From assembly GCA_016185505.1 (NCBI GenBank), contig JACPNL010000005.1, positions 1-53,544 on the forward strand: a DNA stretch of 53,544 nucleotides. The letters run 5' to 3'. Position 1 is the first letter of the stretch. Each line of letters starts with the position of its first letter. A model generated the notes under the pieces. The model saw nothing but the letters and a program-made list of their open reading frames with translations, had not been told where the DNA came from and did not search any database. Origin of the DNA: Candidatus Yanofskyibacteriota bacterium (lineage in GTDB: Bacteria > Patescibacteriota > Minisyncoccia > 2-02-FULL-40-12 > GWA2-44-9). This document shows, piece by piece, positions 25,824-49,279 of the stretch. Made by a program: the position numbers and the translations under genes.

Positions 25824-26244
25824 AAACTAGGAGGAATGACAATAATGTAGCTAATTCAGAAGAGTATTAAATTTGTAATTAGAAAACGGCGTCGTTGTCG
25901 TTTAAAACGATTAACGACCTCGCAAGTCCAACGGACTTGCGAGGTCAAGAACGATGTCGCAAGGTTTTGAGTCGAAATATAACTTCTCCAAATAATTGCC
26001 CGGTCGATTAAGGGCAAAACGGAGGCGGTTTAACAAAGGCCTTGAAAAATAATTAGTAAGTAGAAAGTAGTAGGTAGTAAGTAGAAAATTAATAGTAATC
26101 AAACTCTGTTCCGGAACTGGTCGAAACTCGATAGGTTGATTGACAATTAACGATCTCGCAAGTCCAACAGACTTGCGAGATCAATAATGCGAAGTCAATA
26201 ATGCATCGAGACAGTTCCGACCCAGAGCAAACAAAATAATTAAA
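25824..26244 (+). other. Structured leader before the S-layer-like gene
   Basis: There is no gene in this stretch. It holds a 14-bp-stem hairpin (25916-25946, GACCTCGCAAGTCC arms), a TAGTAAGTAGAAAG-type AT-rich tract (about 26050-26100), and a long imperfect stem pairing 26103-26131 with 26203-26227. Inside the long stem is a second hairpin (26152-26182, GATCTCGCAAGTC arms). These could stabilise an abundant mRNA or be inserted repeats. Confidence 0.55.
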
Positions 26245-30033: not shown

Positions 30034-30064
30034 GATATCGGATGTCCATTGGACATCCGCTGTC
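30034..30064. repeat. Family E palindrome, intergenic
   Basis: GATATCGGATGTCC (30034-30047) and GGACATCCGCTGTC (30051-30064), just upstream of the next gene. Confidence 0.7.
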
Positions 30065-30085
30065 GTTAATTGTTATTATTTATGT

Positions 30086-31992: not shown

Positions 31993-32004
31993 GCAAAACG
32001 ATGG
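31976..32004. terminator. Hairpin spanning a stop codon
   Basis: CCATCGTTTTGCC and its exact complement around ATA (13-bp stem). It contains the TAG of the preceding gene. There is no T-run, so it may be a repeat or processing signal. Confidence 0.55.
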
Positions 32005-32040
32005 AAATGTTCGAAATGATGGAAATGATGGATGTGATAA
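31999..32040. repeat. Family F left arm
   Basis: Repeated GATGGAAATG/TTCGAAATG units directly upstream of the four-helix-bundle gene. The matching right arm is at 32408-32462. Confidence 0.65.
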
Positions 32041-32043
32041 AAG

Positions 32044-32403
32044 ATGAAAATATATAATTATGAAAAGTTGGAGGTCTACAAGTTGTCGCTTCAATTAGTG
32101 GTGACAATATATGTCCTGGTCAAAAAATTTCCAAAAGACGAAATATTCGGACTGACATCCCAGCTAAAAAGAGCTGCCGTATCTGTTTTGTTAAACATAG
32201 TGGAAGGTAGTAGCAGAAGCTCAAAAAAGGACTTTGCCGTTTTTATAGATAGAAGCATTGGGTCAACCGTAGAAGTTAGAGCTAGTTTGCAAGTAGCCGT
32301 AGAATTGAAGTTTACAACAGAAAAAGACATAGTTAATATTTTAGAACTTATAGACAAACTGTATTTCAAATTACAAAAATTAAAAAAATATCTCCGTTCA
32401 TAA
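32044..32403 (+). CDS. Four-helix-bundle protein (S23/IVP/Avd-like)
   Basis: Small helical protein of 119 residues with the family pattern YEKLEVYKLSLQLVVTIY, then FPKDEIFGLTSQLKRAAVSV and NIVEGSSRSSKKDFAVFI. It matches the 23S rRNA intervening-sequence protein family, which also includes the accessory protein Avd of diversity-generating retroelements. No rRNA, reverse transcriptase or variable region is in the window. Here it lies between the left and right arms of a family F repeat, as if it were the cargo of that element. It may bind nucleic acid. Function is otherwise unknown. Confidence 0.85.
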   Translation: MKIYNYEKLEVYKLSLQLVVTIYVLVKKFPKDEIFGLTSQLKRAAVSVLLNIVEGSSRSSKKDFAVFIDRSIGSTVEVRASLQVAVELKFTTEKDIVNILELIDKLYFKLQKLKKYLRS

Positions 32404-32407
32404 ATAA

Positions 32408-32462
32408 CATCTCCAACAAGCCCCAAGCGATCCAACAAATGAAATGATCCAACACTTCCAAC
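32408..32462. repeat. Family F right arm
   Basis: AACATCTCCAACAAGC, AAGCGATCCAAC and CACTTCCAAC units, complementary in part to 31999-32040. It supplies the ATG and first codons (MIQHFQR) of the next gene. Confidence 0.65.
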
Positions 32463-34273: not shown

Positions 34274-34274
34274 G

Positions 34275-34460
34275 TTGTTACATTGTTATATTGTTAGTCC
34301 CGATTTTGTATCCCAATTCCGAAGGAATCGAGGACTCTCGATTACCAAGCAATCGGAGCAAAATCGAGGATCCTCGATTCGAATAGCGAATCGGGACAAT
34401 TCAGCAATGTAGCAATGAGCCGCGTAGCGGCTGAACAATGTAACAATGTGACAATATAAT
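34275..34460. repeat. Family G arms around nested B elements
   Basis: TTACATTG/CAATGTAA-type arms lie outside a B element (34297-34397). The first hairpin loop of that B holds a second, degenerate B with its own central palindrome. It fills the gap before the TPR glycosyltransferase. Confidence 0.8.
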
Positions 34461-34461
34461 A

Positions 34462-36612
34462 ATGAATAACTTGATTTTTAGAAAAGAAGCCTGGTTTTTG
34501 ATCACGATCCTTATAATAGTAGGTAGCTTTATTTACTCGTTCAATCTAAACAACGAGCTTTTTTGGGATGATGACGATTGGATAATAAATAATGTTTATG
34601 TTCATTCGGTAAGCTGGGAGAATGTTAAGTTTTTGTTTTCAAATAATGTTTTAGCGGGTGTTGGGCTTCAGAGCAACTACTACCGGCCGTTTTTATTTTT
34701 TACGTTTGCTTTTAACTGGGTTATTTCTGAAACCAAGCCGTTTCTTTGGCATTTGGTTAGCAATTCAATACATATTGCCAATGCGGTGTTGGTGTTTGTG
34801 TTATTTAGAAAATATGTCGGCAACTTGGTCTCGTTTCTTACCGCTTTGTTCTTTGTTGTTCATCCTCTTAATACAGAAGCCGTAGCTTATATTTCCGGCC
34901 GCGGCGATCCGTTATCTGCCCTCTTCCTCCTCCTGGCTCTCTACCTGTGGATAAACGACTTGTCCCGATTTGTTCTGCGCAAAGCGCAGTTAACAAATCG
35001 AGGACCCTCGATTTCGCGGCCAAGCTTTGCTTGGGCGAAATCGGGACAATATCGATTATTCACAGGAGGGTACAGTACTGTACCCTCCACAGGGGTTAGG
35101 TGGCTTAAAATCTTATCTCTGGCAGCTTTGGTTCTTGCTATTTTGAGCCGGGAGACGGGGGTTATATTTCCTTTCCTTTTGATGGTTTTTTACGTCTCGT
35201 TTATTTCTCAAGACAGATTTGTTAAATCGGTCAAAAAAGCATTCTTTGAAGCATCGCCCTACTTTGGAGTTGTTGTTGTCTATAGTATTCTACGGCTTAC
35301 AGTATTGAATTTCCAGAATACTCTGAATTTTTATGCCGCGCCGAACCTATATTCGGAAAATATAATTTATCGCCTCTTTACATTTATGCACGTCTTGGTT
35401 GATTACTTCCGCTTACTGTTTGTGCCGACAGGACTTCATATGGAACGAAGTATGGTGGTACATACATCGCTTTTCCAATGGCCCGTCTGGTTGGGAGCTA
35501 CGATCATTGTTACATTGCTATATTGCTTAATTGTTATGTACAGAAAGGTTAGGGTTGTTAGAAATGTTCGAGATGATGGAGATGATCAATTCGAACAAGT
35601 GAAACGATCGAACATCTCGAACAATTCAAACGACTTATATGCGAAGCGATCCAACAATTCCAACAAGCAAAGCAGAGTACAGGACTGTACCCTGCAAAGC
35701 GATCCAACGTTCCGAATTTGGTTATTCGGAACGGGTTGGTTTTTCATTGGCCTGGTAATGGTTTCTGGTATTACGCCTATCAACGCTTTGATATATGAGC
35801 ACTGGCTGTATTTGTCGATGATCGGGGTCTGGGCCATCTTTTCCTTTTATCTGGTAAAACTACTCGACTATCTAAATCACAAATTACAAACTACCCCGAA
35901 CAAAAATCAAAGATTTTCAACGGGGCAGGCAAATCACAAACAATACCAAGATTCTAATGATCAAAACACAAAACAACGCGTTTGGAATTTTGAATTTAGT
36001 AATTGGAATTTGTTTGGAATTTGTAAATTGGTGCTTGTGGTTTTTATAATATTTTATATTTCTTTTTTAGGATATCAATCCGTAAAAAGAAATATCCTGT
36101 GGGGCAATCCTGTTGAATTCTACAAGAACATTATCAAATACGAGCCGGACAGCGTCAGAATAAATAACAATCTCGGTAATCAATACTTTAACCGGGGCGA
36201 TATGGAACAGGCGGAGGTTTATTATAGAAAAGCAATAGAATCGGGGGACCAGTTTGCCCAGCCATATTATAATCTGGGGAGCATACTGCAGTCGCGGGGC
36301 GATATTGTCGGCGCAATCACTGAATTTGATAAGGCGATAAAAATTGATCCGAACTTTTATTATCCATATCAAAACTTAGCTGTTATTTACGCGCAACGGG
36401 GGGACTTTGTTCAAGCTGTTTTGAATGTGGAAAAACTGAAACTACTTCTTCCTTCTAACCCCAGAGTCTATTATAACTCCGCGCTTATTTATATTGCCCT
36501 TAATAACAAGGAGAAAGCGCTCATTGATCTTAACGAAGGACTGAAGTATTCCAGCGTTGACCCGGAGACGGGGAACTTAATAGAGAAACTTATTCAACAG
36601 CTGGAAAATTGA
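34462..36612 (+). CDS. TMTC-like GT-C glycosyltransferase with TPRs, enlarged by repeats
   Basis: Membrane glycosyltransferase-like protein of 716 residues. An N-terminal GT-C part has the acidic loop LFWDDDDWIINN and the YISGRGDPLSA segment. A C-terminal TPR array (about residues 560-716) includes NNLGNQYFNRGDMEQAEVYY. TMTC relatives are protein O-mannosyltransferases in eukaryotes; bacterial substrates are unknown, S-layer proteins being an attractive guess. Compared with its paralogs at 36707 and 44775 it has three extra loops, each made of repeat DNA: A+B+C (LWINDLSRF...STG, about 49 residues), F+C (RSNISNNSNDLYAKRSN, about 55 residues) and a K-type tract (NHKQYQDSNDQNTKQR). Confidence 0.8.
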   Translation: MNNLIFRKEAWFLITILIIVGSFIYSFNLNNELFWDDDDWIINNVYVHSVSWENVKFLFSNNVLAGVGLQSNYYRPFLFFTFAFNWVISETKPFLWHLVSNSIHIANAVLVFVLFRKYVGNLVSFLTALFFVVHPLNTEAVAYISGRGDPLSALFLLLALYLWINDLSRFVLRKAQLTNRGPSISRPSFAWAKSGQYRLFTGGYSTVPSTGVRWLKILSLAALVLAILSRETGVIFPFLLMVFYVSFISQDRFVKSVKKAFFEASPYFGVVVVYSILRLTVLNFQNTLNFYAAPNLYSENIIYRLFTFMHVLVDYFRLLFVPTGLHMERSMVVHTSLFQWPVWLGATIIVTLLYCLIVMYRKVRVVRNVRDDGDDQFEQVKRSNISNNSNDLYAKRSNNSNKQSRVQDCTLQSDPTFRIWLFGTGWFFIGLVMVSGITPINALIYEHWLYLSMIGVWAIFSFYLVKLLDYLNHKLQTTPNKNQRFSTGQANHKQYQDSNDQNTKQRVWNFEFSNWNLFGICKLVLVVFIIFYISFLGYQSVKRNILWGNPVEFYKNIIKYEPDSVRINNNLGNQYFNRGDMEQAEVYYRKAIESGDQFAQPYYNLGSILQSRGDIVGAITEFDKAIKIDPNFYYPYQNLAVIYAQRGDFVQAVLNVEKLKLLLPSNPRVYYNSALIYIALNNKEKALIDLNEGLKYSSVDPETGNLIEKLIQQLEN
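34944..35093. repeat. Nested A+B+C composite in frame (150 bp)
   Basis: Family A left arm, a complete B element (34962-35047), the damaged A right arm, then a C palindrome (arms GGAGGGTACAGT and complement, 35065-35088) bordered by a CACAGG duplication. The length is divisible by three. Confidence 0.9.
35559..35710. repeat. Family F element with embedded C palindrome, in frame
   Basis: TTCGAGATGATGGAGATG-type left arm and AAGCGATCCAACAATTCCAAC-like right arm. A C element (GCAGAGTACAGGACTGTAC) sits inside the right arm, and AAGC(A)AAGCGATCCAAC continues after it. Confidence 0.75.
35876..36033. repeat. AATTTG/CAAATT-rich tract, in frame (family K)
   Basis: The first half is rich in AATCACAAA and ACAAAAC. 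The second half is TTTGGAATTTTGAATTTAG and TTGGAATTTG, partly complementary. It encodes an Asn/Gln/Lys-rich loop. Confidence 0.55.
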
Positions 36613-36704
36613 TAGAGGTGATGGAAATGTTCGAGATGTTGGAAATGATTCAATTCCAACATCTCCAACAAGCCCCAGGCGATCCATCATTTCGAACGGA
36701 TGAT
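36613..36704. repeat. Family F element, copy 6, intergenic
   Basis: GATGGAAATGTTCGAGATG left arm and ATTCCAACATCTCCAACAAG right arm with a GGCGATCCATCATTTCGAA end. It lies just before the ATG at 36707. Confidence 0.75.
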
Positions 36705-36706
36705 CT

Positions 36707-38536
36707 ATGAGTAAAGACTTATTTGCTTGGATAAAAAATAACCAGACGATCGCGGTTTTAATTTTGTCCATTGTTTTATCTTTTGCCGTTTTTGGCAACG
36801 GTATCTTTAATGACTTTACTTTTGATGATGTGGCGGTTGTACAAAATAGGGGAGATCTCAAAGATCCTTCTAATTTTTTTAACTTATTTGTTTCTCCATA
36901 TCATCTCTTGGCTAAATTAGGCCTTTTTAGGCCTTTTACGATGGCTTCCTATGCTGTTAATCACTACATAAACGACGCAATTCTAACTGATTCTGCTACA
37001 AGTTTTCAGCAGGCGGCGGGTTTTCGTGTGGCGAACATTATTATTCATGCCCTTAACTCTTTTTTGGTTTTCTGGCTGATTAGATGCTTATTCAAAAACA
37101 GATTTTTATCGTATGCGACATTTTTACTGTTTTTAGTTCACCCTATTCATACCGAAGCGGTGACATCTATTGTCGGGAGAGCAGAATTGCTGGCATTTTT
37201 CTGGTCTCTGGTCGCTATATATTTTTTCATTAAAAAAGACACTTTTCTAAGCTCTGTTTCTTTTTTGTTTGCCTTGCTTAGTAAAGAGGTTGCCCTGATG
37301 GCCCTGCCGATCCTTTTTTATGTTGACTGGGGCGTGATGAAAAACAGATTTTTCCAAACGATAAACAGAACTTTTATTTTCACGCCGGTGGTTTTGGTCT
37401 ATGCCGCGCTACGCTATAAAGCGTTGGGTGCTTACTTTTTCGGCGACGTCACTATGACCATTGTGGGAAATCACTTAAAATTTCTTCCGCTTAAAGAAAG
37501 AGTTCTCACGGCTTTTAAGGTGCTTTATATGTATTTAGAACGGCTTGTCTGGCCAGTCCATCTTTCAGCCGATTACTCTTACAGTACGATCTCACCGGTT
37601 AGTCGTTTTGTGGATTTAACTTTTTTGGTTGGTGCCGTTTTTTTCATCTTTTTATTAGGATTCTTAGTTTTTAGAAAAACACATGGGACAGCAGTGGCTT
37701 TTGGCGCTTTGGCTTTCTTGTCTCCTTACATTATGATATCTAATTTAATAAAGCCGGTTGGGACGATTATGGGCGAGCGATTGATGTATTTTTCTTCATT
37801 CGGATTTATTCTCCTTTTTTCTTATGTACTGCTCAAGGTATCTGAAAAAATTAGCAAGAAGATCATCTATGTTTTTTTGGCCTTATTAATAATATTTTTC
37901 AGCGCCAGAACGATAATACGGAACGGAGATTGGTATGATGCGAGAACCTTGTTCACGGCAACACTTAAGGAGTCGCCCAATAGCTTAATAGCCAGAATGG
38001 CTATGGCGGCTGTGCATGTTAAGGATGACGAGTGGGACGAGGCCAAAGAACAGCTTAATATTGCTCTAGATATTTATGAGGATAACTCTCGTGTTCAGAA
38101 TCTCTGGGGCATAATTGCCGACCATGAAGGCGATCAAAAGCTGGCCGAAGAAAGATATTTAAGATCTCTGGAACTTAATCCCGATGCCATTAACGCCCAG
38201 ATAAACTTAGCGGAACTTTACGCTAAACAGGGCCGGCTGGAAGAAGCGGGGGTTATGTTTAAAAAAGTAATAGAATTTTACCCCGTTATCGAATATGTCG
38301 TCAGGTATGCCTATACGCAGATAGCCCTTAATAACCCCGACGAAGCCATCAGCGCTGTGGGTTATTATCTCGGCGATGATCTAAACCATCCTGATATAAG
38401 CGCTTTAGCTGGTACGGCATACTTTGTCAAAGGTGATTATAAAATGGCCTTATTTTTCCTAAAAAAGGCGGTGGAATTTGGAAATACTGTGCCAGAAATT
38501 AAAGAAATGATTCAAATTTCAGAGGGGAATTTGTAG
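36707..38536 (+). CDS. TMTC-like GT-C glycosyltransferase with TPRs (uninterrupted paralog)
   Basis: Membrane protein of 609 residues homologous to the protein at 34462. The first external loop has FTFDDVAVVQNRGDL, then HPIHTEAVTSIVGRAELLAF and FALLSKEVALMALPI. About ten membrane helices precede a TPR region (about 420-609) with AEERYLRSLELNPDAINAQI. No palindromic insertions are seen, so its short loops (FFIKKDTFLSS and LVFRKTHGTAV) are the reference against which the insertions in the neighbour can be located. Probable role is glycosylation of surface proteins on the outer membrane face. Confidence 0.8.
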   Translation: MSKDLFAWIKNNQTIAVLILSIVLSFAVFGNGIFNDFTFDDVAVVQNRGDLKDPSNFFNLFVSPYHLLAKLGLFRPFTMASYAVNHYINDAILTDSATSFQQAAGFRVANIIIHALNSFLVFWLIRCLFKNRFLSYATFLLFLVHPIHTEAVTSIVGRAELLAFFWSLVAIYFFIKKDTFLSSVSFLFALLSKEVALMALPILFYVDWGVMKNRFFQTINRTFIFTPVVLVYAALRYKALGAYFFGDVTMTIVGNHLKFLPLKERVLTAFKVLYMYLERLVWPVHLSADYSYSTISPVSRFVDLTFLVGAVFFIFLLGFLVFRKTHGTAVAFGALAFLSPYIMISNLIKPVGTIMGERLMYFSSFGFILLFSYVLLKVSEKISKKIIYVFLALLIIFFSARTIIRNGDWYDARTLFTATLKESPNSLIARMAMAAVHVKDDEWDEAKEQLNIALDIYEDNSRVQNLWGIIADHEGDQKLAEERYLRSLELNPDAINAQINLAELYAKQGRLEEAGVMFKKVIEFYPVIEYVVRYAYTQIALNNPDEAISAVGYYLGDDLNHPDISALAGTAYFVKGDYKMALFFLKKAVEFGNTVPEIKEMIQISEGNL

Positions 38537-38624
38537 CATCTACATAGCTATATTGTTCAGCCGCTCCGCGGCTAATTGTTACATTGTTAACCATTCTAAC
38601 AATGTAACCATGTAACAATGTATT
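38537..38624. repeat. Family G repeat, intergenic
   Basis: CAATGTAAC and GTTACATTG units in both orientations, plus a CCGCTCCGCGG mini-palindrome. No gene. Confidence 0.65.
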
Positions 38625-38628
38625 TGAG

Positions 38629-38672
38629 TTATCCACATTTTTCCTTGCGTCTACAGTAACCTGCTTTATAAT
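38629..38672 (+). promoter_or_regulatory. DnaA-box-like 9-mer and promoter
   Basis: TTATCCACA (38629-38637), then TTGCGT (38645-38650), 16 bases and TATAAT (38667-38672). It drives the fibre-like gene at 38749. Confidence 0.6.
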
Positions 38673-38748
38673 TAATAAGTAGTTGTTGATATCCAAGGTT
38701 CCAATCTTTCCAAAAAGAAAGCTTGTAATGTTGGAAAACTAAAACGCG

Positions 38749-39855
38749 ATGAACAAATTTAAGAGCGCTTTTGGGTCGATATTTCCTATTCTTTTCGTTT
38801 CTGCCTTAATGGGCTTTTTTGTTGTTGGTGTATACGCAGCCAGTACAATAGGAACAAACATGGTTACTACCGGAACCATGCATATTGGCGACGGTTCGGC
38901 TCAAACTAAGTTTGAGGTCCAAGGCACCGCATCATCATCATATATCCTAACCGGCAATACAATCCAAGTAGGAGGCTTTGCTTCAGCGGCTTATAACCGG
39001 CTTGGTACTACTGCTACTACCCATGGTCATTATATTGCTGGTTCAGATGACTTGTTTGTTTCCGGTGATCTGGAAGGTAGAGGTTCGCTTTCATTTACCG
39101 GACCAGCTTCTCTATCTCTTACGCTTTGGGTCGGTACTAATGGTAAAACAGGAAACGTCGGTATTGGAACATCAAGTCCAGTCAGTCTTTTGGACGTTAA
39201 TACGAAATTTAACGTACTTTCCGGAGGTTTCGTGGGTGTTAATACTTCTACGCCTCAAACCAGATTTGAAGTTCAGGGTACTGCTTCAGCGTCATACTTC
39301 TTAACCGGCAATACAATCCAAGTAGGAGGCTTTGCTTCAGCGGCTTATAACCGGCTTGGTACTACTGCTACTACCCATGGTCATTATATTGCTGGTTCAG
39401 ATGACTTAATGATCGGCGGTGATTTAGAGGTTAGAGCCACTGTTTCTTTTGCAGGAGCAGCTTCTTTCTCCCAGGCCTTTTGGATAGGTACTAATGGCAA
39501 AACAGGTAATGTCGGAGTTGGCACAAATGCTCCGACGACAAAATTTGCAGTATCCGGCAGTGCTTCTGTTTCAACTGACTTTGAAGTGGGAGGCGTAGCT
39601 TCCGCGGCGACCCTTATTTCAAAGACTAGTTTATTGGCTAGTTCCGGACGTTCTGCCAGTTCCAGTACGATTTATGTTGCTGAATTTGGTACTGCTAAGA
39701 CCGCCACTGTAAGTGTTTTGTTTGGTGGCAATTCTTCAACGGCTGGCACTTGTTTGCAATTAAAAGATACTGCAGGAAATTGGGTATATGCTCGTGTTAA
39801 TATCGGAGGAACAGCTTTCGTGATTAACACTAATGAATGCCACACCGGTTTATAA
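38749..39855 (+). CDS. Secreted repeat-rich fibre-like surface protein
   Basis: Protein of 368 residues with a signal peptide (about 1-31) and Thr/Ser/Gly-rich repeats. Units read FEVQGTASSSYILTGNTIQV and GNVGIGTSSPVSLLDV, the pattern of phage tail-fibre-like beta-structured repeats common in CPR surface proteins. Two units share a 106-bp stretch of identical DNA (38948-39053 and 39302-39407), which shows recent duplication or gene conversion. The C-terminal 100 residues form a separate domain with two cysteines (AGTCLQLKDTAGNWVYARV). Likely a surface adhesin or fibre. Confidence 0.65.
   Translation: MNKFKSAFGSIFPILFVSALMGFFVVGVYAASTIGTNMVTTGTMHIGDGSAQTKFEVQGTASSSYILTGNTIQVGGFASAAYNRLGTTATTHGHYIAGSDDLFVSGDLEGRGSLSFTGPASLSLTLWVGTNGKTGNVGIGTSSPVSLLDVNTKFNVLSGGFVGVNTSTPQTRFEVQGTASASYFLTGNTIQVGGFASAAYNRLGTTATTHGHYIAGSDDLMIGGDLEVRATVSFAGAASFSQAFWIGTNGKTGNVGVGTNAPTTKFAVSGSASVSTDFEVGGVASAATLISKTSLLASSGRSASSSTIYVAEFGTAKTATVSVLFGGNSSTAGTCLQLKDTAGNWVYARVNIGGTAFVINTNECHTGL
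38948..39407 (+). repeat. Exact 106-bp direct repeat within the fibre-like gene
   Basis: Copies at 38948-39053 and 39302-39407 are identical and 354 bases (118 codons) apart, so they keep the frame. Confidence 0.92.
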
Positions 39856-39868
39856 TTAAAGCAAAAGT

Positions 39869-40270
39869 ATGGCTAGTAGTAAGAATACTCAATTTGTTAT
39901 AGCGATAAGTTTAGCTGTTCTGGTTATATTAGTTGGCTACACTGGCGTACAGTTTTTGGCGGATTACCTGAAATACGATCGTTATGACAAACAAGACTTT
40001 ATTGACCCGAATACATACCAAGCTGTATTTTTAACTAACGATCAAACATACTTTGGGCGCTTAAAAAACATAAGTTCTGACTATCTGATCTTGTTTGATG
40101 TTTACTACGTTAAAATAGATGAGGATGGCGCTGGGCAGCTTGTTAAGCTTGGTTCGATTGAGCCGCATGAACCTGAAAATAAAATGACAATAAACCGAGA
40201 CCAGGTATTATTCTGGGAAAATATAAAATTTGATTCGTCGGTAGTAAAAAAAATTCAGGGTATGCGGTAA
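39869..40270 (+). CDS. Anchored small protein of unknown function
   Basis: Protein of 133 residues with one membrane helix (about 9-31) and a small soluble domain (YQAVFLTNDQTYFGRLKNIS, DYLILFDVYYVKIDEDGAGQ) reminiscent of short barrel-like CPR proteins. It lies 13 bases after the fibre-like gene and 28 before the surface-module gene, so the three are likely co-transcribed. Confidence 0.65.
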   Translation: MASSKNTQFVIAISLAVLVILVGYTGVQFLADYLKYDRYDKQDFIDPNTYQAVFLTNDQTYFGRLKNISSDYLILFDVYYVKIDEDGAGQLVKLGSIEPHEPENKMTINRDQVLFWENIKFDSSVVKKIQGMR

Positions 40271-40298
40271 AGATAAGTTCATAAAATAAATAACATAA

Positions 40299-41504
40299 AT
40301 GAAAATGCCAAAAATAAATTTTTCCTTGCTGTTAGTTGCGGTTTTAGCAGCAGGAGTATTCTGGGTCGGAGTCAATCAAGCCAGCGCTGTCGGGGATGCT
40401 TATTTCCCGCAAGCCACTACCGTTGCGTTGGATGTTGGAAATATAGTGATATCGGCCGGTTCCGATGCTGATTCGGTTGTAACTACAAATTTAACCATCA
40501 CTATTACAATTTCTTCCGGCCAGTCAATGGTCCTTACCTCTGCCGGTAAATTACAGTTATCTAATAACGGCGGCTATACTTTTACTTGCGAAGTCGACCA
40601 ATCGCGACTTTCAATTGTTCCTTCATCCACCCAGACAATTATAGTAACTCCGACATCAACTTCCTGTACCAGCTCTGCCGGCGGGTCTACTGGTAGTAGT
40701 GGTGGCGGTGGTGGGACGACCATACCCGCATCTACCCCAACGCCGACCCCAACTCCGACAGTGAGCCCGGCAATTTCGCCAAGCGTTACCCCAACTCCGA
40801 CACCGGTTTCGGGAAGCAAACCGACTCCAACTTCACGAGGATTTGTAAGTTTGGCGGCGGTTAGTTTGAAAGACGGTGATGTTATCAGTGCCGGAGGCTC
40901 AAGTGATCCGGACGTTTATATAGTCAACCCGCACGGTTATAAGAGATTATTTTTGAACCCTGCCATATTTGGATTTTACGGTCATCTCGGAGGATTTTCA
41001 AAAGTTAAAGCCACCACTTCAGTTACTAGAGATGTATTTGTAACTTCCGGTCTTTTCAGAAATTGTGAAACAGAAGATGTAAAGGTCTATGGCGTGGAAA
41101 CAACGGGCGAAGATACCGGAATGCTGCATTGGGTTAACACAACCGGCGAACAAGCCGTTAAAGACGACCCCAATTTCTTCAAAAAGGTTTTCTGTATAAA
41201 CACAAAAGAGTTTAGCTGGTATCCAAAGGGATCTGATTATACTTCTGTAAACCAGATACCTGACTATACAAGAAAAGCCGCTTCGTTTTCTGGCACCACC
41301 GTGTCAACAGTCAATCAATATAAGGTTGTTTCCAGTGTCGGATTTCTTAATGTCAGAGCGTCAGCTACTACCGCAAGCGCTGTTTTGGGACAACTTGATG
41401 CTGGCGACAAAGTAATGAGTTTGGGGAAAAGCGGTTTATGGCACAAGATAACATTTGAAGGCAAAGAGGGATGGGTTCACGGTGATTATTTAGAGAAAAT
41501 GTAA
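40299..41504 (+). CDS. Secreted protein with S-layer N-domain and SH3b domain
   Basis: Protein of 401 residues: signal peptide (about 1-30), a beta-rich domain, a TPTPTPT linker, then a domain (about 190-325) nearly the same as the N-terminal domain of the S-layer-like protein (GYKRLFLNPAIFGFYGHLGG, KVYGVETTGEDTGMLHWVNT), and a C-terminal bacterial SH3 domain (VGFLNVRASATTASAVLGQL, GKEGWVHGDYLEKM). The shared domain suggests that it co-assembles with or anchors to the S-layer; the SH3 domain may bind peptidoglycan. A clear terminator follows. Confidence 0.75.
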   Translation: MKMPKINFSLLLVAVLAAGVFWVGVNQASAVGDAYFPQATTVALDVGNIVISAGSDADSVVTTNLTITITISSGQSMVLTSAGKLQLSNNGGYTFTCEVDQSRLSIVPSSTQTIIVTPTSTSCTSSAGGSTGSSGGGGGTTIPASTPTPTPTPTVSPAISPSVTPTPTPVSGSKPTPTSRGFVSLAAVSLKDGDVISAGGSSDPDVYIVNPHGYKRLFLNPAIFGFYGHLGGFSKVKATTSVTRDVFVTSGLFRNCETEDVKVYGVETTGEDTGMLHWVNTTGEQAVKDDPNFFKKVFCINTKEFSWYPKGSDYTSVNQIPDYTRKAASFSGTTVSTVNQYKVVSSVGFLNVRASATTASAVLGQLDAGDKVMSLGKSGLWHKITFEGKEGWVHGDYLEKM

Positions 41505-41551
41505 TGGCCGTAATTAAATAACTTAGTAACAAATATATTTTACACAAAAAG

Positions 41552-41573
41552 CCTTGTTAAAACAAGGTTTTTT
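41552..41573 (+). terminator. Rho-independent terminator
   Basis: CCTTGTT, loop, AACAAGG and TTTTTT. It ends the transcript of the surface-protein genes 38749-41504. Confidence 0.85.
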
Positions 41574-41592
41574 GATTAAAATAGCAGTAACG

Positions 41593-43203
41593 ATGTTTAA
41601 GTATCACAAATTGATTGTAATTGTTTTGTTGGGCATAGTTTTTTTTCTGCCGTTTTTTAGCGCGCAAAATTTCAGTCCGGCAACTGACGAAATAGCACAT
41701 TTGCCGAGCGGATATTCTTACTGGAAAACTGGCCAGATAGTGTTGAATCCCGAGCACCCTCCACTGGTAAAATTGATGGCTTCTTTCCCCTTGCTTTTTA
41801 TGGACCTGAAATTTGATTCAAACGACCCTAATTTAATTGGTCCTATTCGAAACGAGTGGTCTTTCGGAAGCAAGTTTTTATTTTCTAATGACATTGGCCG
41901 CTTATTGCTTTGGGGGAGATTATCGGTCATGTTTTTGTCCGTCTTGCTCGGTTTTTATATCTATAAGTGGGCATCAGAACTCTTTAACTATCAGGCGGGA
42001 ATTTTGGCTCTGTTCTTGTATGCGTTTATGCCCGTCATGGTTGCCAATGCTCAATTTGTTACGACTGATCTCCCACTGGCTTCTTTTTCATTTGTTACTT
42101 TTTACTATCTATGGAAATTCTCCAGAACCAACCACAAGAAGTATTTAGTGTTTTCAGGCTGTTTCTTGGGATTAGCGCTGGGTTCAAAATTTTCTGCTAC
42201 TGTCTTTTTACCCGTAATTGCTTTGTTTGTCTTTATTTATGCGTGGCAGCGTGGCAGAGAATTTAACACGAGAATGCGCCAGTTGGTCAATCTTGCTCTG
42301 ATTGTGGCCATACCCGCTTTTGTTGTTGTTTATTTTTCCTACCTCATGCCGATTGACTCCGGATTTTATTTAAAAGGGCTAAAAAGTGTTTATGCCAACT
42401 GGAAACCGGGCTATAATTTTTATTTGAATGGAAATTTTTCGTCTAGCGGATGGTGGTATTATTTTTTGGAGGCCTTTGTAATAAAAACGCCGATTCCGGC
42501 TCTGCTTGCGTTTATTGTCTCTATTGCTTTTTACAAAAGATCAAGAATGAATAACTGGGATAGGGTACTTGTTTTTTTGCCGATGCTTTTCTTTGCTTTT
42601 GTCACGAGTATTAAGGCCCACGATATAAGCGTTAGGTACCTTATTCCAGCCATCCCATTTCTCATTCTTTATACGGGAGGAGGACTCTCTGAAACATTTC
42701 GACATTTCGATTCGTCTGACAGCCGGACAGGCATTTCGATATTTAGAAATCTCAAAGCCAGTATTAAAATTGTGCCAATTTTAATACTGGCTTTGGCTGT
42801 CTGGTATATTTTTTCTGCCGTCAGTATTTATCCCGATTATCTGGCTTATTTCAACGAATTTGTCGGTGGATCCAAAAATGGATATAAATATCTTGACGAT
42901 TCAAATATTGAGTGGGGACAAGATTTAAAACGGTTGGGAAAGTACCAAGCAAGTAATCCCGGCACCAAAGTTATTTATTCGTGGCGAAACTCAAACCCAA
43001 AGTATTATGGGGTTAAAGATTTGCTTATTGTTGACGATTCCGGCTGGTGGCGGGAGCCAAAAGGGCGATATGCCATCAACACTTTCCTACTTATTCGCTT
43101 ACAGCTTTTGAGCAAACAAAAAAACGATCCCGCTTTAAACTGGCTGGCGTTATATGAACCGGTAGACAGAATAGGGCAGTCGTTCTTCGTCTATGACTTT
43201 TAA
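41593..43203 (+). CDS. PMT/ArnT-like GT39-type glycosyltransferase
   Basis: Membrane protein of about 536 residues with roughly eleven hydrophobic helices. The first external loop has ATDEIAHLPSGYSYW with the catalytic Asp/Glu pair, followed by the family HPPLVKL motif. These features are typical of lipid-sugar-dependent GT-C enzymes of the GT39/ArnT group. The acceptor is unknown. ATG 41593 is used because the upstream frame is terminator DNA. A 19-bp-stem palindrome (42754-42794) is read in frame as KASIKIVPILILALA. Confidence 0.8.
   Translation: MFKYHKLIVIVLLGIVFFLPFFSAQNFSPATDEIAHLPSGYSYWKTGQIVLNPEHPPLVKLMASFPLLFMDLKFDSNDPNLIGPIRNEWSFGSKFLFSNDIGRLLLWGRLSVMFLSVLLGFYIYKWASELFNYQAGILALFLYAFMPVMVANAQFVTTDLPLASFSFVTFYYLWKFSRTNHKKYLVFSGCFLGLALGSKFSATVFLPVIALFVFIYAWQRGREFNTRMRQLVNLALIVAIPAFVVVYFSYLMPIDSGFYLKGLKSVYANWKPGYNFYLNGNFSSSGWWYYFLEAFVIKTPIPALLAFIVSIAFYKRSRMNNWDRVLVFLPMLFFAFVTSIKAHDISVRYLIPAIPFLILYTGGGLSETFRHFDSSDSRTGISIFRNLKASIKIVPILILALAVWYIFSAVSIYPDYLAYFNEFVGGSKNGYKYLDDSNIEWGQDLKRLGKYQASNPGTKVIYSWRNSNPKYYGVKDLLIVDDSGWWREPKGRYAINTFLLIRLQLLSKQKNDPALNWLALYEPVDRIGQSFFVYDF
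42754..42794. repeat. Palindrome inside the PMT-like gene (family L)
   Basis: AAAGCCAGTATTAAAATTG and its exact complement around TGC. A 19-bp perfect stem within coding sequence, starting at a loop and entering a helix. Confidence 0.8.
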
Positions 43204-43210
43204 TAAAAAT

Positions 43211-43335
43211 TGTTATCTGAAGAAATTGCTACATTGTGAGCAATTCAGTCCCGATTTTCTCTCCGTCAAGACTAGTAGAAAATCGAGGATCCTCGATTTG
43301 CACAGCAAATCGGGACAATGTAACAATGTAGCAAT
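43211..43335. repeat. Family G arms around a B element
   Basis: TTGCTACATTGTGAGCAATT and AATGTAACAATGTAGCAATG arms enclose B (43248-43316). B here has hairpins ATTTTCT/AGAAAAT and ATTTGC/GCAAAT and the central palindrome. Confidence 0.85.
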
Positions 43336-43347
43336 GTGGCGACGTTT

Positions 43348-44763
43348 ATGAAAAGGACCATTTTTCTAATTGGCATAGTGATTTTAGCTGCTGTTAGTGC
43401 CTATCTGTTTTGGACTGATTTTAATTTGGTCCTTCGGTTTACTCAGGATTTTGCCGGCTATAATGCGCCGGAATTTAAAAAGCCAGAGACAGTTTCGGTG
43501 GGCGACGGGGAGCTGTCGTTTTTGGATGTTCCAACAGGATTTGAAATTTCTGTTGTCGCAAAAAATTTGGAGAATCCGAGAGTCATTTTGTTTGATCCGA
43601 AAGGCAGGATGCTGGTTAGCGAGACAAAAGCAGGTAGGGTTAGCGTTTTGGACCCCGTAAAATATTTAGACAAGCGTGTTTTGATTGACGGTTTACAGTC
43701 GCCTCACGGACTGGACTTTTACAAAGATCCTAAGACGGGGGCTACTTATTTATACATTGCCGAAACGCATAGGGTGAACAGATATCCTTATGACATAAAT
43801 ACCGGAAAATTGATCAGTACAGCAGGCCTGCCTGCGCAGGCAGGTGAAAATGTTGTTAATCTTCCGGTTGATGGCAGGCATTTTACCCGAACTATCGCTT
43901 TTGGGCCTAATTTCAGGGCAAGGCAAATATTAGAAGGAACAAGCGTTAATACTCAAATTGACACTAAACTTTATGTTAGCGTCGGTTCGTCTTGCGATGT
44001 TTGTGAAGAAAACACTTGGAAAAGAGCGGCGATATTGGAGTCAGACCCGGAAGGTACTTATACTGCGGAGTTTGCCGGCGGGTTGAGGAATTCGGTGTTT
44101 TTCACATTTCATCCGGCAACAAAAGAAATTTGGGCAACGGAGATGGGGCGGGATAATTTAGGGGATAACTTGCCGCCTGATGAGATCAATATTGTCAAAG
44201 TTGCCGGTCCGGAACACAAGTTTGGCGCTCGCCGGTATGGCTGGCCATTTTGCTACGGTAATAAGATCCAAGATAAAAAGTTTAGTCCGGACAAATGGGA
44301 ACGGATTGATGTTACTAACGATTGCAGTCAGACAGAGTCGCCGATTATTGAAATTCCGGCTCACTCGGCGCCTTTGGGGTTGGTGTTCGTACCCGACAGT
44401 GGTTCATTAGTGACCACGCCAGAGGACGGGCAGGCATCGGAAGGCCAAAGGACTTCCGATGTTAAAAACGAGACATCCGATGTCAAGACGTGGCCGAAAG
44501 AATGGGGAGGGGATTTGCTGGTGGCTTTTCACGGATCGTGGAATTCAAGCGTGCCTGTCGGATATAAAATTGTCAGATATGACTTGGACAAAAACGGCAG
44601 GGTCTTGTCTCAAGAACCGGTAGATTTTGTTTCGGGATGGCTTGGCGAAAACAAAAAGGAGGTCTATGGTCGGCCCGTCGACCTCAAATTTGGCCCAGAC
44701 GGAGCGCTTTATGTTTCCGATGACGCGGCGGGGGTGATTTATAAAATAGAGTCTATAATTTAG
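43348..44763 (+). CDS. PQQ-dependent sugar dehydrogenase-like propeller
   Basis: Exported, membrane-anchored protein of about 471 residues: an N-terminal helix (about 4-20) and a six-bladed propeller of the soluble glucose/sorbosone dehydrogenase family. GFEISVVAKNLENPRVILFD, QSPHGLDFYKDPKTGATYLY, the conserved AFGPNFRARQI region, WATEMGRDNLGDNLPPDEIN and RPVDLKFGPDGALYVSDDAAG are visible. It may oxidise sugars or simply bind them; PQQ supply is not evident here. Family E repeats (ASEGQRTSDVKNETSDVK) and a CCTGCCTGCGCAGGCAGG palindrome (43827-43844) are read in frame. ATG 43348 is preferred over GTG 43336. Confidence 0.75.
   Translation: MKRTIFLIGIVILAAVSAYLFWTDFNLVLRFTQDFAGYNAPEFKKPETVSVGDGELSFLDVPTGFEISVVAKNLENPRVILFDPKGRMLVSETKAGRVSVLDPVKYLDKRVLIDGLQSPHGLDFYKDPKTGATYLYIAETHRVNRYPYDINTGKLISTAGLPAQAGENVVNLPVDGRHFTRTIAFGPNFRARQILEGTSVNTQIDTKLYVSVGSSCDVCEENTWKRAAILESDPEGTYTAEFAGGLRNSVFFTFHPATKEIWATEMGRDNLGDNLPPDEINIVKVAGPEHKFGARRYGWPFCYGNKIQDKKFSPDKWERIDVTNDCSQTESPIIEIPAHSAPLGLVFVPDSGSLVTTPEDGQASEGQRTSDVKNETSDVKTWPKEWGGDLLVAFHGSWNSSVPVGYKIVRYDLDKNGRVLSQEPVDFVSGWLGENKKEVYGRPVDLKFGPDGALYVSDDAAGVIYKIESII
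43827..44484. repeat. In-frame palindromes of the propeller gene
   Basis: CCTGCCTGCGCAGGCAGG at 43827-43844 (family M, encoding LPAQAG), and family E arms CATCGGAAG/CTTCCGATG plus GACATCCGATGTC at 44435-44484. Confidence 0.75.
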
Positions 44764-44774
44764 AAAATCGAAGA

Positions 44775-46439
44775 ATGAACAGGGAACCGCTATTTGTTTT
44801 CTTTATTGTTCTGTTTCTTTCTCTTTTTTTGTTTGGCAATGTTTTAAGCGCCGGATATATTCTTGACGACCACTCTGTTATTGAAAACAGACCGGAATTA
44901 AGAACTCTTCCCGCTTTATACAAAAGCTTTTTAATGCCTTGGCACCAGAACCAGCCCGAACAAGGCAACTATAGGCCGCTGACAATGCTAACCTATGCGT
45001 TTTCGTTGGTATTTTCAGAAAATACCGCTTTTATGCGGATGATAAATTTGTTGCTCCATGCGGCGAATACAGCGATGATCTTTTATCTTGTCAGAAGATA
45101 TTTTCCAAGACAGGCCGCTTATTTTGTTGCATTCGGGTTTGCTTTTTTGCCCATTAATGCGGGGACTGTCGTTTCCCTCGTCGGTAGGAGCGATCTTTTA
45201 AGCGTTTTTTTTATCTTTTTGTCTCTAATTTTGTTTTTTAGTAAAAAATATTGGCGGAGCGCGGTCAGCTTTTTCTTTGCTTTATTGGCAAAAGAGTTTT
45301 CTGTTTTTTTATTGCCATCCGTTTTTTTACTGTCTATTTTTGTCAACAAGGATCGTTTAAATAAAGCGCTGAAAATAACGGCATATTATTTTTTGGTTCT
45401 TATTCCGTACTTTGCTTTAAGGTATTTAACTCTGGGAACACAGGCTTTTAAAAGCCAAAGTTCGGTTGATCCGATAATTGGGCCTCTTGCGTTTGTGGGG
45501 CTGAAAGAAAGAATTTTGTCCGGGTTTGCCTATTTTTATCTTTATGTCAGAAAAACATTTTTTCCGTTTGACCTGTCTCCCGATTATTCTTTTAATCAAA
45601 TTCCCGCCCCCGGGATTTTAAGCGTTGATCTGATCGCGGGGTTGGCGCTTTTTTCGGTTATCGTCTGGGTATTCTTTAAAAACAAAAATAACTATATAAA
45701 AGAGGCGCTAATTCTCTTTTTAGTGCCATTCGGGCTGATTTCCAATATGTTTTTGGTGACTACCGGTACTTTTGCTGAAAGGTGGTGGTATTTACCCTCT
45801 TTTGGATTGTTGTGGCTGGCTGTGGCTTTGGGCTTAAAGGTTGCGCGCCACAGTTCGCAGTTCGCAGTTCGAGGTTTATTGCTTGTTGTGATGGGTTTTT
45901 ATGTTTTTACTTCTTTTAGCCAAGCCAGAGTTTGGACTGACGAAAGAAGATTACTAATGTCAGCGGCAGAGAACTCTCCAAATAGCGCGTGGGCAAGAGC
46001 TAATTTAGCCGCTGTTTACTTTAAAGAAAAAAAATTTGAGTTAGCCAAGAAAGAAGTTAAACAAGCGCTGGAAATAGCTGAAAATTACCCCGTCGCATTA
46101 AATGTTCATGCCAAACTTCTCTGGCAAGAGGGAAAGTTCGGTGACGCTGAACAGGCTTTTGTTCTTGCCTTGGAGCACGATATCAATAAGAGGAATCATC
46201 GAGATTTATACCGCTCTTTGTCTTTTTTGAGCATTGAATCTGGAAATTATGATAAAGCGTCAGAGTACATTAACCAAACGTTAAGTAATAAGGCTTATGG
46301 AGATATTGAAAAAACCGTTTATCTCGATAGTCTTTCCGCGATTTATATCAACGGCTTGATGGCGGGTGACCCCGCCATTCTTTCCGAGCAGGAAAATAGG
46401 ATCGTCGAGAATCTCATTGAACACATAAAAGGTTTATGA
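44775..46439 (+). CDS. TMTC-like GT-C glycosyltransferase with TPRs (third paralog)
   Basis: Membrane protein of 554 residues homologous to those at 34462 and 36707. The acidic first loop is AGYILDDHSVIENRPELRTL; GNYRPLTMLTYA, INAGTVVSLVGRSDLLSV and FALLAKEFSVFLLP follow. Ten or so helices are followed by a short TPR region (about 400-554). No palindromic insertions are seen except a short CAGTTCG triplicate near 45850. The three paralogs may act on different acceptors or linkages of surface proteins. Confidence 0.8.
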   Translation: MNREPLFVFFIVLFLSLFLFGNVLSAGYILDDHSVIENRPELRTLPALYKSFLMPWHQNQPEQGNYRPLTMLTYAFSLVFSENTAFMRMINLLLHAANTAMIFYLVRRYFPRQAAYFVAFGFAFLPINAGTVVSLVGRSDLLSVFFIFLSLILFFSKKYWRSAVSFFFALLAKEFSVFLLPSVFLLSIFVNKDRLNKALKITAYYFLVLIPYFALRYLTLGTQAFKSQSSVDPIIGPLAFVGLKERILSGFAYFYLYVRKTFFPFDLSPDYSFNQIPAPGILSVDLIAGLALFSVIVWVFFKNKNNYIKEALILFLVPFGLISNMFLVTTGTFAERWWYLPSFGLLWLAVALGLKVARHSSQFAVRGLLLVVMGFYVFTSFSQARVWTDERRLLMSAAENSPNSAWARANLAAVYFKEKKFELAKKEVKQALEIAENYPVALNVHAKLLWQEGKFGDAEQAFVLALEHDINKRNHRDLYRSLSFLSIESGNYDKASEYINQTLSNKAYGDIEKTVYLDSLSAIYINGLMAGDPAILSEQENRIVENLIEHIKGL

Positions 46440-46452
46440 TAATATAAAACCT

Positions 46453-48723
46453 ATGTCAAAGCTTAAAGCAAAAGACCCTTTTTTGTTAAAAGCGCTCCGT
46501 TTCGGTGTTTGCTTGGTGATTTTGGTTCCTCTGGTTATATTTAGAGATTTTATCTCGCCGTTTCATTTTGGCAAAGTTATTGTTTTTAGATCTCTGGTTG
46601 AAATCTTAGCGGTAGTTTATCTGATACTGATACTAAAAGACCGGTCATATCTTCCCAAGGCTAATAAAATATTCTGGGCACTCCTTTTGTTCGTTTTAGC
46701 TTTCACGCTGGCCACCTTTACCAGTGTTTTAACTTATCCAAGTTTTTGGGGGACTCTCGAAAGAATGGGGGGCCTTTGGACTTTTTGGCATTATTTTTTA
46801 TTTTATATCATCCTAACTTCGGTAATGACTCAGAGAGAGCACTGGCAGCGTCTTTTGGATTTAACTATTTTTGTCGGAATATTGTCTGCTTTTTACGGAT
46901 TTTTCCAAAAGACCAATATAGATTTTTTCCTTGGTTCCGGTGACAGGGCAAGAATTTTTGGAACATTAGGGAACGCGGCATTATTTGCCGGCTATCAGAT
47001 TTTTATCGTGTTTTTGTCGCTAATGATGTATGTGAAGTCGGACAGTAGGGTCCGGGGATACAGATTATTTTATATGTTTGCTTTTATCACGACGTCTATT
47101 GCCGTTTTAATGACCGCAGTTAGAGGTTCTTTACTTGGTTATGGGGTTGGGCTTATTGTTTTTGCTTTGCTGTGGGCGAGACAATATAAATCGAGTTTTG
47201 GAAGTTTTGTTTTCAAGTTCCTAATCGGCGCAGCTGTAATTTGGGGAATTTTCTCCCTTGTTTTTAACGATGCGGCCTTTGTTAAAAAATCAGGATACTT
47301 AAGCAGGATTACAAATTTGTCATTTACCGCAACTACTGTCCAAACCCGTTTTTGGGCATGGGAGGCCGGTTTTAAGGGCTTGGTTGAAAGTCCTAAAACA
47401 TTTGTTCTTGGCTGGGGGCCGGAGAATTTTAATATCCCGTTTTCAAAATACTTCAACCCCAAATTTTTCAGGGGGCCAGGGGCGGAGACGCTTTTTGACA
47501 GAGCCCATAATATGTTTATAGAAATTCTCGTGACGATGGGCATTATCGGGCTTTTAACGTATGTTGGCATTTTTGTAGTTCTATTTAAGTCCCTAAAGAG
47601 ATTTTTAAAAGAAAATGATTTAATAATTTATGGTATAGGTTTAACGTCTATGACGGTGGCTTATATAATTCATAATTCTTTTATCTTTGACACGTCGGCT
47701 AATTTTATCGTTTTTTTCACTGTTCTGGGATTCGTATCATATTTAAATACGCGCTTAGGCGCGCCGGATAAAATTTCCCAAGACGACAAGGACAGGAGGC
47801 CTATTATAAAGAACAACTCTACCATCGGGGTTTTGGGAGCAATATTTGTGTTTTTTGTGGCGGTTTTAATATACAAAACCAATATTTTGCCGGCAAAGGC
47901 AAATTATGCGACTACGCGGGCTATTGTTGCGAGCTGGGCAGGTGATTTTGACGGTTCTTTTAACAAATACCGGGAAGCTTTGTCTTTCAATGTGCCAGGA
48001 AAATACGAATATCGGCACCGCCTGGCTCAATATTTGGTTGGCGTAGGCGGGCCGAGTGTTAAAGAAGAAAAGGTTAAAAAGGCCTACGAATTTACGATAA
48101 CCGAAGTAGAAAAAAACGTTAAAGAAAACCCCGTTGATTACTTGCCTCATCTCTATGCCTCAAGATTAAATATAATGTTTGGTAAAGATAATCCTAATTC
48201 ACCGTACAACGATATTGCTTTGGAGTATTCAATGAAAGCCCTTGAACTTTCTCCGACATTTGTCAGAACCTATTATGAAATTGCTCAAGCCTATCTGAAC
48301 AAAAAAGATTATCCTAATGCTATCAGATATTTTCAGCAAGCCGTTGATTTAAATCCAGACGCGGGCATATCCCATGCCTATTTGGGAGCAGCAAAAATAG
48401 AGAACGGTGATTTAAGCGGAGCGGAAGATCTGGAGAAAGCTCTTAACGCCGAGAACCCTTACTCGCCCCGCGAAGTGGACTTTCAAAGACTTATCAATGC
48501 GTATTTAAAGACAAATAACTTTGAACGCATTGCTTGGATATATGAGCAACTGATAGTAATTAGTCCAAACGAACCTCAATATTATGCCTCTTTGGCGACT
48601 ACTTATGCCCAATTAGGCAGATTTAACGAAGCTGCCGCTGTGGCTCGTGAGACGGTGAAAATAGACCCCTCTTTCGAATCAGACGCGAGAGTGTTTCTCC
48701 AAAGTTTGGGTAGAGAACTCTAA
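46453..48723 (+). CDS. O-antigen ligase-like (Wzy/WaaL) protein with TPRs
   Basis: Polytopic protein of 756 residues. The first two thirds carry about a dozen helices and the O-antigen-ligase-type loop FWGTLERMGGLWTFWHY, then RIFGTLGNAALFAGYQIFI, AVRGSLLGYGVGL and FDRAHNMFIEILVTMGIIG. The C-terminal third (about 480-756) is TPR repeats (YSMKALELSPTFVRTYYEIA, NKKDYPNAIRYFQQAVDLNP). Such ligases join glycan chains to lipid or, in TPR forms, to proteins. With the GT-C enzymes upstream it may complete glycosylation of the S-layer or other surface proteins. It begins 13 bases after the previous stop. Confidence 0.8.
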   Translation: MSKLKAKDPFLLKALRFGVCLVILVPLVIFRDFISPFHFGKVIVFRSLVEILAVVYLILILKDRSYLPKANKIFWALLLFVLAFTLATFTSVLTYPSFWGTLERMGGLWTFWHYFLFYIILTSVMTQREHWQRLLDLTIFVGILSAFYGFFQKTNIDFFLGSGDRARIFGTLGNAALFAGYQIFIVFLSLMMYVKSDSRVRGYRLFYMFAFITTSIAVLMTAVRGSLLGYGVGLIVFALLWARQYKSSFGSFVFKFLIGAAVIWGIFSLVFNDAAFVKKSGYLSRITNLSFTATTVQTRFWAWEAGFKGLVESPKTFVLGWGPENFNIPFSKYFNPKFFRGPGAETLFDRAHNMFIEILVTMGIIGLLTYVGIFVVLFKSLKRFLKENDLIIYGIGLTSMTVAYIIHNSFIFDTSANFIVFFTVLGFVSYLNTRLGAPDKISQDDKDRRPIIKNNSTIGVLGAIFVFFVAVLIYKTNILPAKANYATTRAIVASWAGDFDGSFNKYREALSFNVPGKYEYRHRLAQYLVGVGGPSVKEEKVKKAYEFTITEVEKNVKENPVDYLPHLYASRLNIMFGKDNPNSPYNDIALEYSMKALELSPTFVRTYYEIAQAYLNKKDYPNAIRYFQQAVDLNPDAGISHAYLGAAKIENGDLSGAEDLEKALNAENPYSPREVDFQRLINAYLKTNNFERIAWIYEQLIVISPNEPQYYASLATTYAQLGRFNEAAAVARETVKIDPSFESDARVFLQSLGREL

Positions 48724-48886
48724 ATACATTGTTAAATTGTTGCATGGCTATACTGTTGCCCTCAAATTTGCTTGGCAAATTTGAGGGCTGATTTTTAGTC
48801 CCGATTTTGTCCCCGCCTTGGCGGGGTTACAAAATCGAGGATCCTCGATTCGCATAGCGAATCGGGACAATTAAACAATGTATCTT
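48724..48886. repeat. Family G arms, hairpin and B element
   Basis: ACATTGTTAAATTGTTGC and TTAAACAATGTAT ends; a CCCTCAAATTTGC hairpin (48761-48787); B at 48798-48868, with hairpins ATTTTGT/ACAAAAT and ATTCGC/GCGAAT around CGAGGATCCTCG. Confidence 0.85.
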
Positions 48887-48889
48887 TGG

Positions 48890-48898
48890 TGTGGATAA
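48890..48898. promoter_or_regulatory. DnaA-box-like 9-mer
   Basis: TGTGGATAA, about 100 bases upstream of the NPF-protein start and just outside the repeat block. The downstream -10 (TATAAA-like) is weak. Confidence 0.4.
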
Positions 48899-48994
48899 CT
48901 GCTCTTTGTACAACTTTCGAGATTAGTTTAAAATTAAATTAGAAATTCCTATTTATAAAATTTTTAATGTGCAACAAAAACTAAACTGATCAAG

Positions 48995-49279
48995 ATGACT
49001 TCTTGGTTTGGAGGTTTTTTTGCAGTCACTAATTTGGTTAACAACAAATTATTGTGGGCGATCATCGTCGCGGTCGGAGTATTATCATATTGGGTAGGCG
49101 ATTGGCAGGGATATTCAAGGTCGCAGGCCGATGTCAAAAAAGCGCAAGAGCTAGCTGGTCAGAAAGCAGCGGAGGACGCGGCTAAAGCGGCCAATCCTTT
49201 CAAGGCCACTAATCCTCTTGAGGGCGTAGAGTCCAATCCTTTTGAAGAGGCCAAGAAAGTGCTTAACCCTTTCAATTAG
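48995..49279 (+). CDS. Small membrane protein with NPF-repeat tail (1)
   Basis: Protein of 94 residues with one membrane helix (about 19-38) and a hydrophilic tail. The tail contains ANPFK, TNPLE, SNPFE and LNPFN. The same plan (helix, then NPF motifs) occurs in the protein at 53092, and the two bracket the cysteine-rich secreted protein gene. Function is unknown. Repeated NPF may be a docking motif, as NPF is for EH domains in eukaryotes, but no such partner is visible here. Confidence 0.75.
   Translation: MTSWFGGFFAVTNLVNNKLLWAIIVAVGVLSYWVGDWQGYSRSQADVKKAQELAGQKAAEDAAKAANPFKATNPLEGVESNPFEEAKKVLNPFN

Follow-up and report, generated by a model that had tools for sequence, protein, structure and literature searches.

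Palindromic elements of Rickettsia are inserts that are translated in frame within proteins, and in Allomyces a fungal mitochondrial element brings an endonuclease together with a replacement part of atp6. We know of no double-hairpin design, nuclease or tRNA cargo among the Rickettsia elements. Double-hairpin elements (DHE), which are not removed from transcripts, are described from the mitochondrial DNA of Allomyces and Schizosaccharomyces, and RHE from sponge mtDNA (PMC2800124, PMC10085805). Small GIY-YIG nucleases appear in two further settings: T4 SegB is a free-standing homing endonuclease linked to tRNA genes and to their spread (PMC2988022, PMC13096335), and a 2024 report describes CPR rRNA genes with GIY-YIG-bearing insertions, which belong to neither the group I nor the group II introns (PMC11270868).

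Here we analyze a repeat, termed family B, from the window, which is the whole stretch of 53,544 nucleotides under study and belongs to a genome of 681 kb in 32 contigs (G000). Our literature search, conducted mostly outside subscription journals, returned no bacterial or CPR double-hairpin element and no account of family B in bacteria. Taking the evidence together, we consider family B to be probably a double-hairpin DNA element that is mobile in CPR bacteria, comprising a cargo-bearing homing and rescue form and cargo-less derivatives.

Copies in the window and hairpin design

An earlier note on this DNA had listed copies at 16463, 17402, 34297, 34962, 43248, 48798 and 8433, and all seven were found in the window (Table 1). 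It had also given the outer arms as GTCCCG/CGGGAC; the outermost G and C are bases of the target, and the true ends are TCCC...GGGA. The exact element reads TCCCGAT-hairpin-ATCGAGGATCCTCGAT-hairpin-ATCGGGA, and most cargo-less copies in the loci studied are 53-99 bp long. The centre CGAGGATCCTCG occurs exactly 29 times in G000, compared with 0 occurrences of the reversed pattern used as a control. The copies at 16464 and 17403 were scored as one, because they are identical and each lies within an identical block of about 110 bp.

Table 1. Double-hairpin copies and the transposase gene of the window.
Feature	Position	Strand	Remarks
Decayed double-hairpin copy	8433-8475		TCCCAATTGC..ATCGAGGATCCTCGAC..GTCGGGA; then a further half unit to about 8500
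Double-hairpin element	16464-16533		70 bp; within the loop of a family A (DnaA-box-like) palindrome
Double-hairpin element	17403-17472		Same sequence as the 16464 copy and in an identical family A palindrome; A-B-A composite, 17383-17492
Double-hairpin element	34298-34396		99 bp; nested element in left hairpin loop
Nested smaller element	34311-34357		TCCCAATTCC..ATCGAGGACTCTCGAT..ATCGGA; in left-hairpin loop of the 34298 element
Double-hairpin element	34963-35046		84 bp; two long bulged arms; variant centre AGGACCCT; in frame within ORF 34462-36612
Double-hairpin element	43249-43315		67 bp; one long and one short arm; intergenic
Double-hairpin element	48799-48867		69 bp; one long and one short arm; intergenic
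IS200-like RAYT transposase gene (PF01797)	19792-20481	-	

That pairing is kept while the arm sequence changes, as had been proposed from the window copies, was borne out in larger arm sets. Among 158 distinct arms, collected without requiring complementarity, stem positions 5-9 form Watson-Crick pairs in 98, 96, 92, 87 and 77% of cases, against 70, 54, 33, 31 and 34% expected from independent columns, and pairing falls to chance level at positions 10-11, where the bulge is located. When a single arm per locus was taken (n=103), 0.887 of the cells were paired, compared with 0.441 after shuffling (shuffle maximum 0.491). The design of the long arms is strikingly uniform while their sequence drifts: 9 bp, then on the centre side a bulge of 2 nt, and an apical hairpin of 6-7 bp. 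Exactly 9 bp followed by two unpaired centre-side bases, mostly AA or AG, were found in 40 of the 68 long arms with an apical stem, the latter being usually 6-7 bp long and closed by TTT or TTC.

Across copies, the outer TCCC/GGGA and the centre AGGATCCT are nearly invariant and therefore contribute no evidence of covariation, and arms are found with differing partner arms, so the two hairpins are independent. The covariation thus belongs to two separate hairpins and not, as the earlier note had it, to a four-way junction acting as one unit, although the two adjacent hairpins do make up one element, as in the mitochondrial double-hairpin elements. Its suggestion that a folded form is maintained, as DNA cruciform or RNA, holds for the hairpin pairing; the RNA part is unlikely, a mobile DNA element being the probable alternative. 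The hairpin shape is probably the feature recognised by the mobility machinery, hence covariation without sequence conservation, and fold-back repair could contribute to arm complementarity.

Insertion sites, interrupted genes and spread

A set of 81 insertion sites yielded the roughly palindromic target consensus T(T/A)G|C(A/T)A, in which the element is inserted exactly between G and (usually) C, with no target-site duplication, as in the mitochondrial double-hairpin elements. Two congeners, G001 and G002, have the corresponding sites empty, which proves insertion. In an exonuclease gene (L018), an 84-nt element adds 28 residues, and excision of TCCC..GGGA restores EKQEKDGVQYI, to be compared with EKQEKDNVQYI in G001 and EKTENDNVQYI in G002. 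Likewise, tRNA-Arg(TCG) and tRNA-Lys(CTT) are adjacent and uninterrupted in both congeners, and in the syntenic pair of G000 the tRNA-Lys is split by the element. The family A loop GACTTG|CGAAGTC is also seen both with and without a family B element, the empty target GACTTGCGAAGTC standing at window positions 32774-32795 and 24259-24280.

Within long open frames, 12 of 15 element copies are multiples of three and open; the other three candidates comprise one tRNA locus and two gene-edge sites. Splicing of the element was rejected on these reading-frame statistics, and because the 12 clear copies are in frame and open, an in-gene element would be kept in the mRNA and translated. Further interrupted genes were observed. 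In L024 (1700-2400) the start of EF-G occurs twice, as an N-terminal fragment broken by an element at IDA|GKT and then as an intact EF-G start. Related elements occupy one common site (AAAGAAAAACTTG|AAATYGTC, KEKL|EIV) in three genomes (L060 3390, L068 2345 and L072 3975); an intact version downstream in L270 resembles a serine recombinase gene.

Searching GTDB genomes with the pattern ATCGAGGATCCTCGATN{8,38}ATCGGGA returned matches in at least 107 stretches. The 80 matches listed come from at least 43 assemblies (counted by accession prefix), almost all of them Patescibacteria/CPR, with Magasanik-, Yanofsky-, Sung-, Wolfe-, Staskawicz-, Giovannoni- and other lineages represented; the contigs assigned to Elusimicrobia (L037) and Flavobacteriales (L097) may be mis-binned CPR contigs. 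The richest of the B-bearing genomes, the Magasanikbacteria genome G003, contains 39 centres. In two congeners the pattern gave no match, and in an even sample of the phylum the exact centre was present in only 2 of 286 genomes; the spread is therefore patchy. IMG/VR, searched for a viral reservoir with the strict pattern, gave no match.

Nuclease and tRNA genes carried in the arms

When a transposase was sought between the arms by a far-partner search, what turned up were tRNAs and GIY-YIG genes. A seemingly missing arm is often a long arm with cargo, which in relatives consists of a gene encoding a GIY-YIG nuclease, an entire tRNA gene, or the two together. The nuclease ORF has about 80-90 codons with arm stems on both sides (L029, L033, L043, L062, L200, L089, L261, L270), and the arm-borne ORFs match PF01541 with E values of 1e-15 to 1e-19; this homing-type nuclease is present in arms of relatives and absent from the window's own copies. 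In 11 B-bearing genomes, exact inverted repeats of at least 11 nt bound 23 of 62 small GIY-YIG ORFs (null 1.3%), and a tRNA lies within 250 bp of 26 of the 62, a frequent order being the 5' part of a tRNA, the nuclease and a whole tRNA.

The nuclease tree, built on an alignment of only 79 columns and poorly resolved in much of its extent, contains a split supported at 97/93: the seven B-labelled rows all lie in one part, of 28 rows, and the 20 rows that have other terminal repeats all lie in the opposite part. Because of this split, the nuclease lineage appears to go with the kind of ends. The arm-borne nucleases of five genomes form one clade (support 99/82), and some carried nucleases are decayed (L261, L270). 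In G000, which has 29 centres, no small GIY-YIG gene was found; its sole GIY-YIG gene, an ORF of 479 aa, was taken to be UvrC-like. The only GIY-YIG ORF of G006 (nine centres) is likewise a long one, so either these two genomes lack the nuclease or it did its work at an earlier time, and the cargo-less copies of G000 would be relics or moved by something else.

Other small GIY-YIG genes were also encountered. Those of L178, L181, L193, L201 and L258 have terminal repeats such as ACCCCGTTAGAGAT on either side, several of them being inserted exactly at a start codon (ATGA|..|TGAA), and they make up a second family of CPR elements, which is single-hairpin-like. In L192 and L199, GIY-YIG insertions that have inverted repeats lie within an apparent rnpB (RNase P RNA) gene and an apparent 16S rRNA gene.

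All 12 tRNA-bearing elements examined sit within a tRNA gene of the same isoacceptor: removal of the element rebuilds an outer tRNA whose anticodon equals that of the inner one. Six of these cases were rebuilt by ARAGORN, namely Lys-CTT in L012 (both copies called once a second double-hairpin insert was also removed), Glu-CTC in L022 and L094 (both copies called) and in L089 (at a relaxed threshold), and Thr-CGT in L037 and L039 (both copies called). The other six, Ala (L084, L087, L261, L270), Ser (L090) and Lys (L108), were read by eye, and in some of them one half of the outer tRNA is missing or further interrupted. The insertion sites are on the 3' side of the D-stem (TAGAG|C, TAG|GAC) or at the anticodon (CG|C, TG|C, TTG|GA). 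L087 and L261 have a nuclease in one arm and an intact tRNA in the other; in L089 both are in one arm. The second insert of L012 (minus strand, about 2110-2160; CCCCGAC..GTCGGGGAGCCGAC..GTCGGCT) lies in the D-loop of the interrupted tRNA-Lys and is unrelated.

In G000, the only intact Lys-CTT and Glu-CTC genes found in an incomplete tRNA census are those borne by elements. Its outer tRNA-Lys is 90% identical to the G001 gene, the carried inner one only 77% identical to the outer, so that the inner tRNA-Lys appears to be foreign rather than a recent local duplicate. The inner and outer 3' halves of L090 are nearly identical, and a recent copy or conversion is therefore likely there.

The match of isoacceptors in all 12 cases points to homing by an element that supplies a substitute for the gene it disrupts. 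The cargo-bearing form would be the autonomous one, with the GIY-YIG nuclease as the putative mobiliser: it would cut a conserved site in the tRNA D-stem or anticodon, the element would be copied into the break, and the carried tRNA would take the place of the broken one ('home and rescue'). Cargo-less copies, the window's included, would be non-autonomous derivatives that have dispersed into loops and between genes. On balance we lean towards a natural bacterial home-and-rescue selfish element, in which the nuclease of one arm cuts a conserved tRNA gene and an intact tRNA with matching isoacceptor comes from the other arm, damage to the host gene being compensated and loss of the element possibly harmful. 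Dispersal to many unrelated sites, which exceeds usual homing behaviour, speaks against homing.

Alternative explanations and comparison with known systems

A REPIN- or BIME-like origin, in which the genome's Y1 (IS200-like) RAYT transposase would move paired REP hairpins, would account for an inverted pair of bulged hairpins, the lack of target duplication and the nested and mosaic copies, and the window as well as 9 of 15 other genomes have RAYT genes. We nevertheless regard it as unlikely, and RAYT was rejected as a general mobiliser of family B: six of the 15 B-bearing genomes have centres and no Y1_Tnp (G003, despite its 39 centres, and G004, G008, G009, G013 and G014), and none of the RAYTs examined has a B centre within 350 bp, most having different palindromes of their own. 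In the window, the RAYT gene is flanked by two copies of family A, which is therefore probably that RAYT's own repeat. Family B copies that lie within family A palindromes (16464, 17403, L007, L010, L016, L019) probably moved along with them. Self-excision after transcription, as an intron or by translational bypass, would let interrupted tRNAs and genes work, and exact removal does rebuild both tRNAs and proteins; this is very improbable, as every clear in-gene copy has a length divisible by three and no stop codon, features that would be needless if it were removed, and the interrupted tRNAs are accompanied by an intact copy of the same isoacceptor.

The strong covariation and uniform architecture could also point to a structured non-coding or cis-regulatory RNA. 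However, the element has dyad symmetry, equivalent on both strands, and no strand preference; copies stand in frame and open within ORFs, within tRNA genes and nested in one another; and a search of window positions 34000-49000 gave no Rfam match and no group I or II intron RNA fold. RNA function is therefore unlikely, and as an account of the whole family we give a structured RNA hardly any weight. Template switching is able to create covariation without selection, and passive palindromes whose arms are kept complementary by fold-back, with no mobility, could resemble family B. That explanation is equally hard to credit: the empty sites, at which insertions are clean, contradict it, the ends and the asymmetric bulge are conserved, and copies are dispersed across lineages. 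A mobile double-hairpin element remains our preferred reading.

The window also holds other repeats. Family A, a palindrome CCTGTGGATAAACGACTT..AAGTCGTTTATCCACAGG with an inverted perfect DnaA-box-like TTATCCACA, stands at 14535-14575, 18235-18275, 19751-19791, 20513-20553, 20793-20833 and 32762-32802. A dispersed palindrome family with variable arms, GACATCGGATGTCC..GG(C/A)CATCCGATGTC, is found at 11105-11141, 16579-16615, 22471-22555, 25916-25952, 30034-30070, 31434-31470 and 44433-44469. Clusters of short AT-rich repeats (GTTGGAAATGATGGAAATG, AAGCGAAGCGATCCAACA) lie in and between genes at 25462-25514, 31985-33311, 35533-35716 and 36596-36657, and a 275-bp tandem duplication, 81% identical, is present within ORF 38749-39855 (38897-39171 and 39251-39525).

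With a mobile double-hairpin element as the preferred reading, bacteria would gain double-hairpin elements of their own, and an explanation would be at hand for many small GIY-YIG genes in CPR genomes, for tRNA genes there that are broken or nested, and for short in-frame peptide insertions in CPR proteins. It would reveal a natural selfish element that carries a replacement for the gene it breaks, would make the movement of hairpin elements without a transposase a testable question, and cautions against reading covariation in repeats as RNA function.

The closest known kind is the double-hairpin element of fungal mitochondria. By their described features, DHE and RHE share with family B two consecutive hairpins, complementary substitutions and no flanking duplication, as well as presence in genes and rRNA and a patchy distribution between close relatives (PMC2800124, PMC10085805). 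DHE-like retention in transcripts may also apply to family B, judging from the 12 in-frame copies. Unlike DHE, family B is bacterial, has conserved ends and centre and a fixed design of 9 bp and a 2-nt bulge, and carries GIY-YIG and tRNA genes in its arms. REPIN/RAYT systems are similar in their inverted pairs of bulged hairpins, mosaic copies and lack of target duplication; family B, in contrast, has variable stems and cargo genes and no RAYT link, the genome's RAYT gene not being flanked by family B repeats. Cargo lies within the hairpin in family B, not between sites as with integron attC, and the Rickettsia palindromic elements resemble it as in-frame translated palindromic inserts. T4 SegB is alike as a small GIY-YIG nuclease associated with tRNA genes, but it is a phage gene and is not known within a hairpin element or interrupting a tRNA. 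Finally, the CPR rRNA insertions share the hosts and the GIY-YIG ORFs in non-intron insertions, whereas that study concerned rRNA only and mentions neither hairpins nor tRNAs (PMC11270868).
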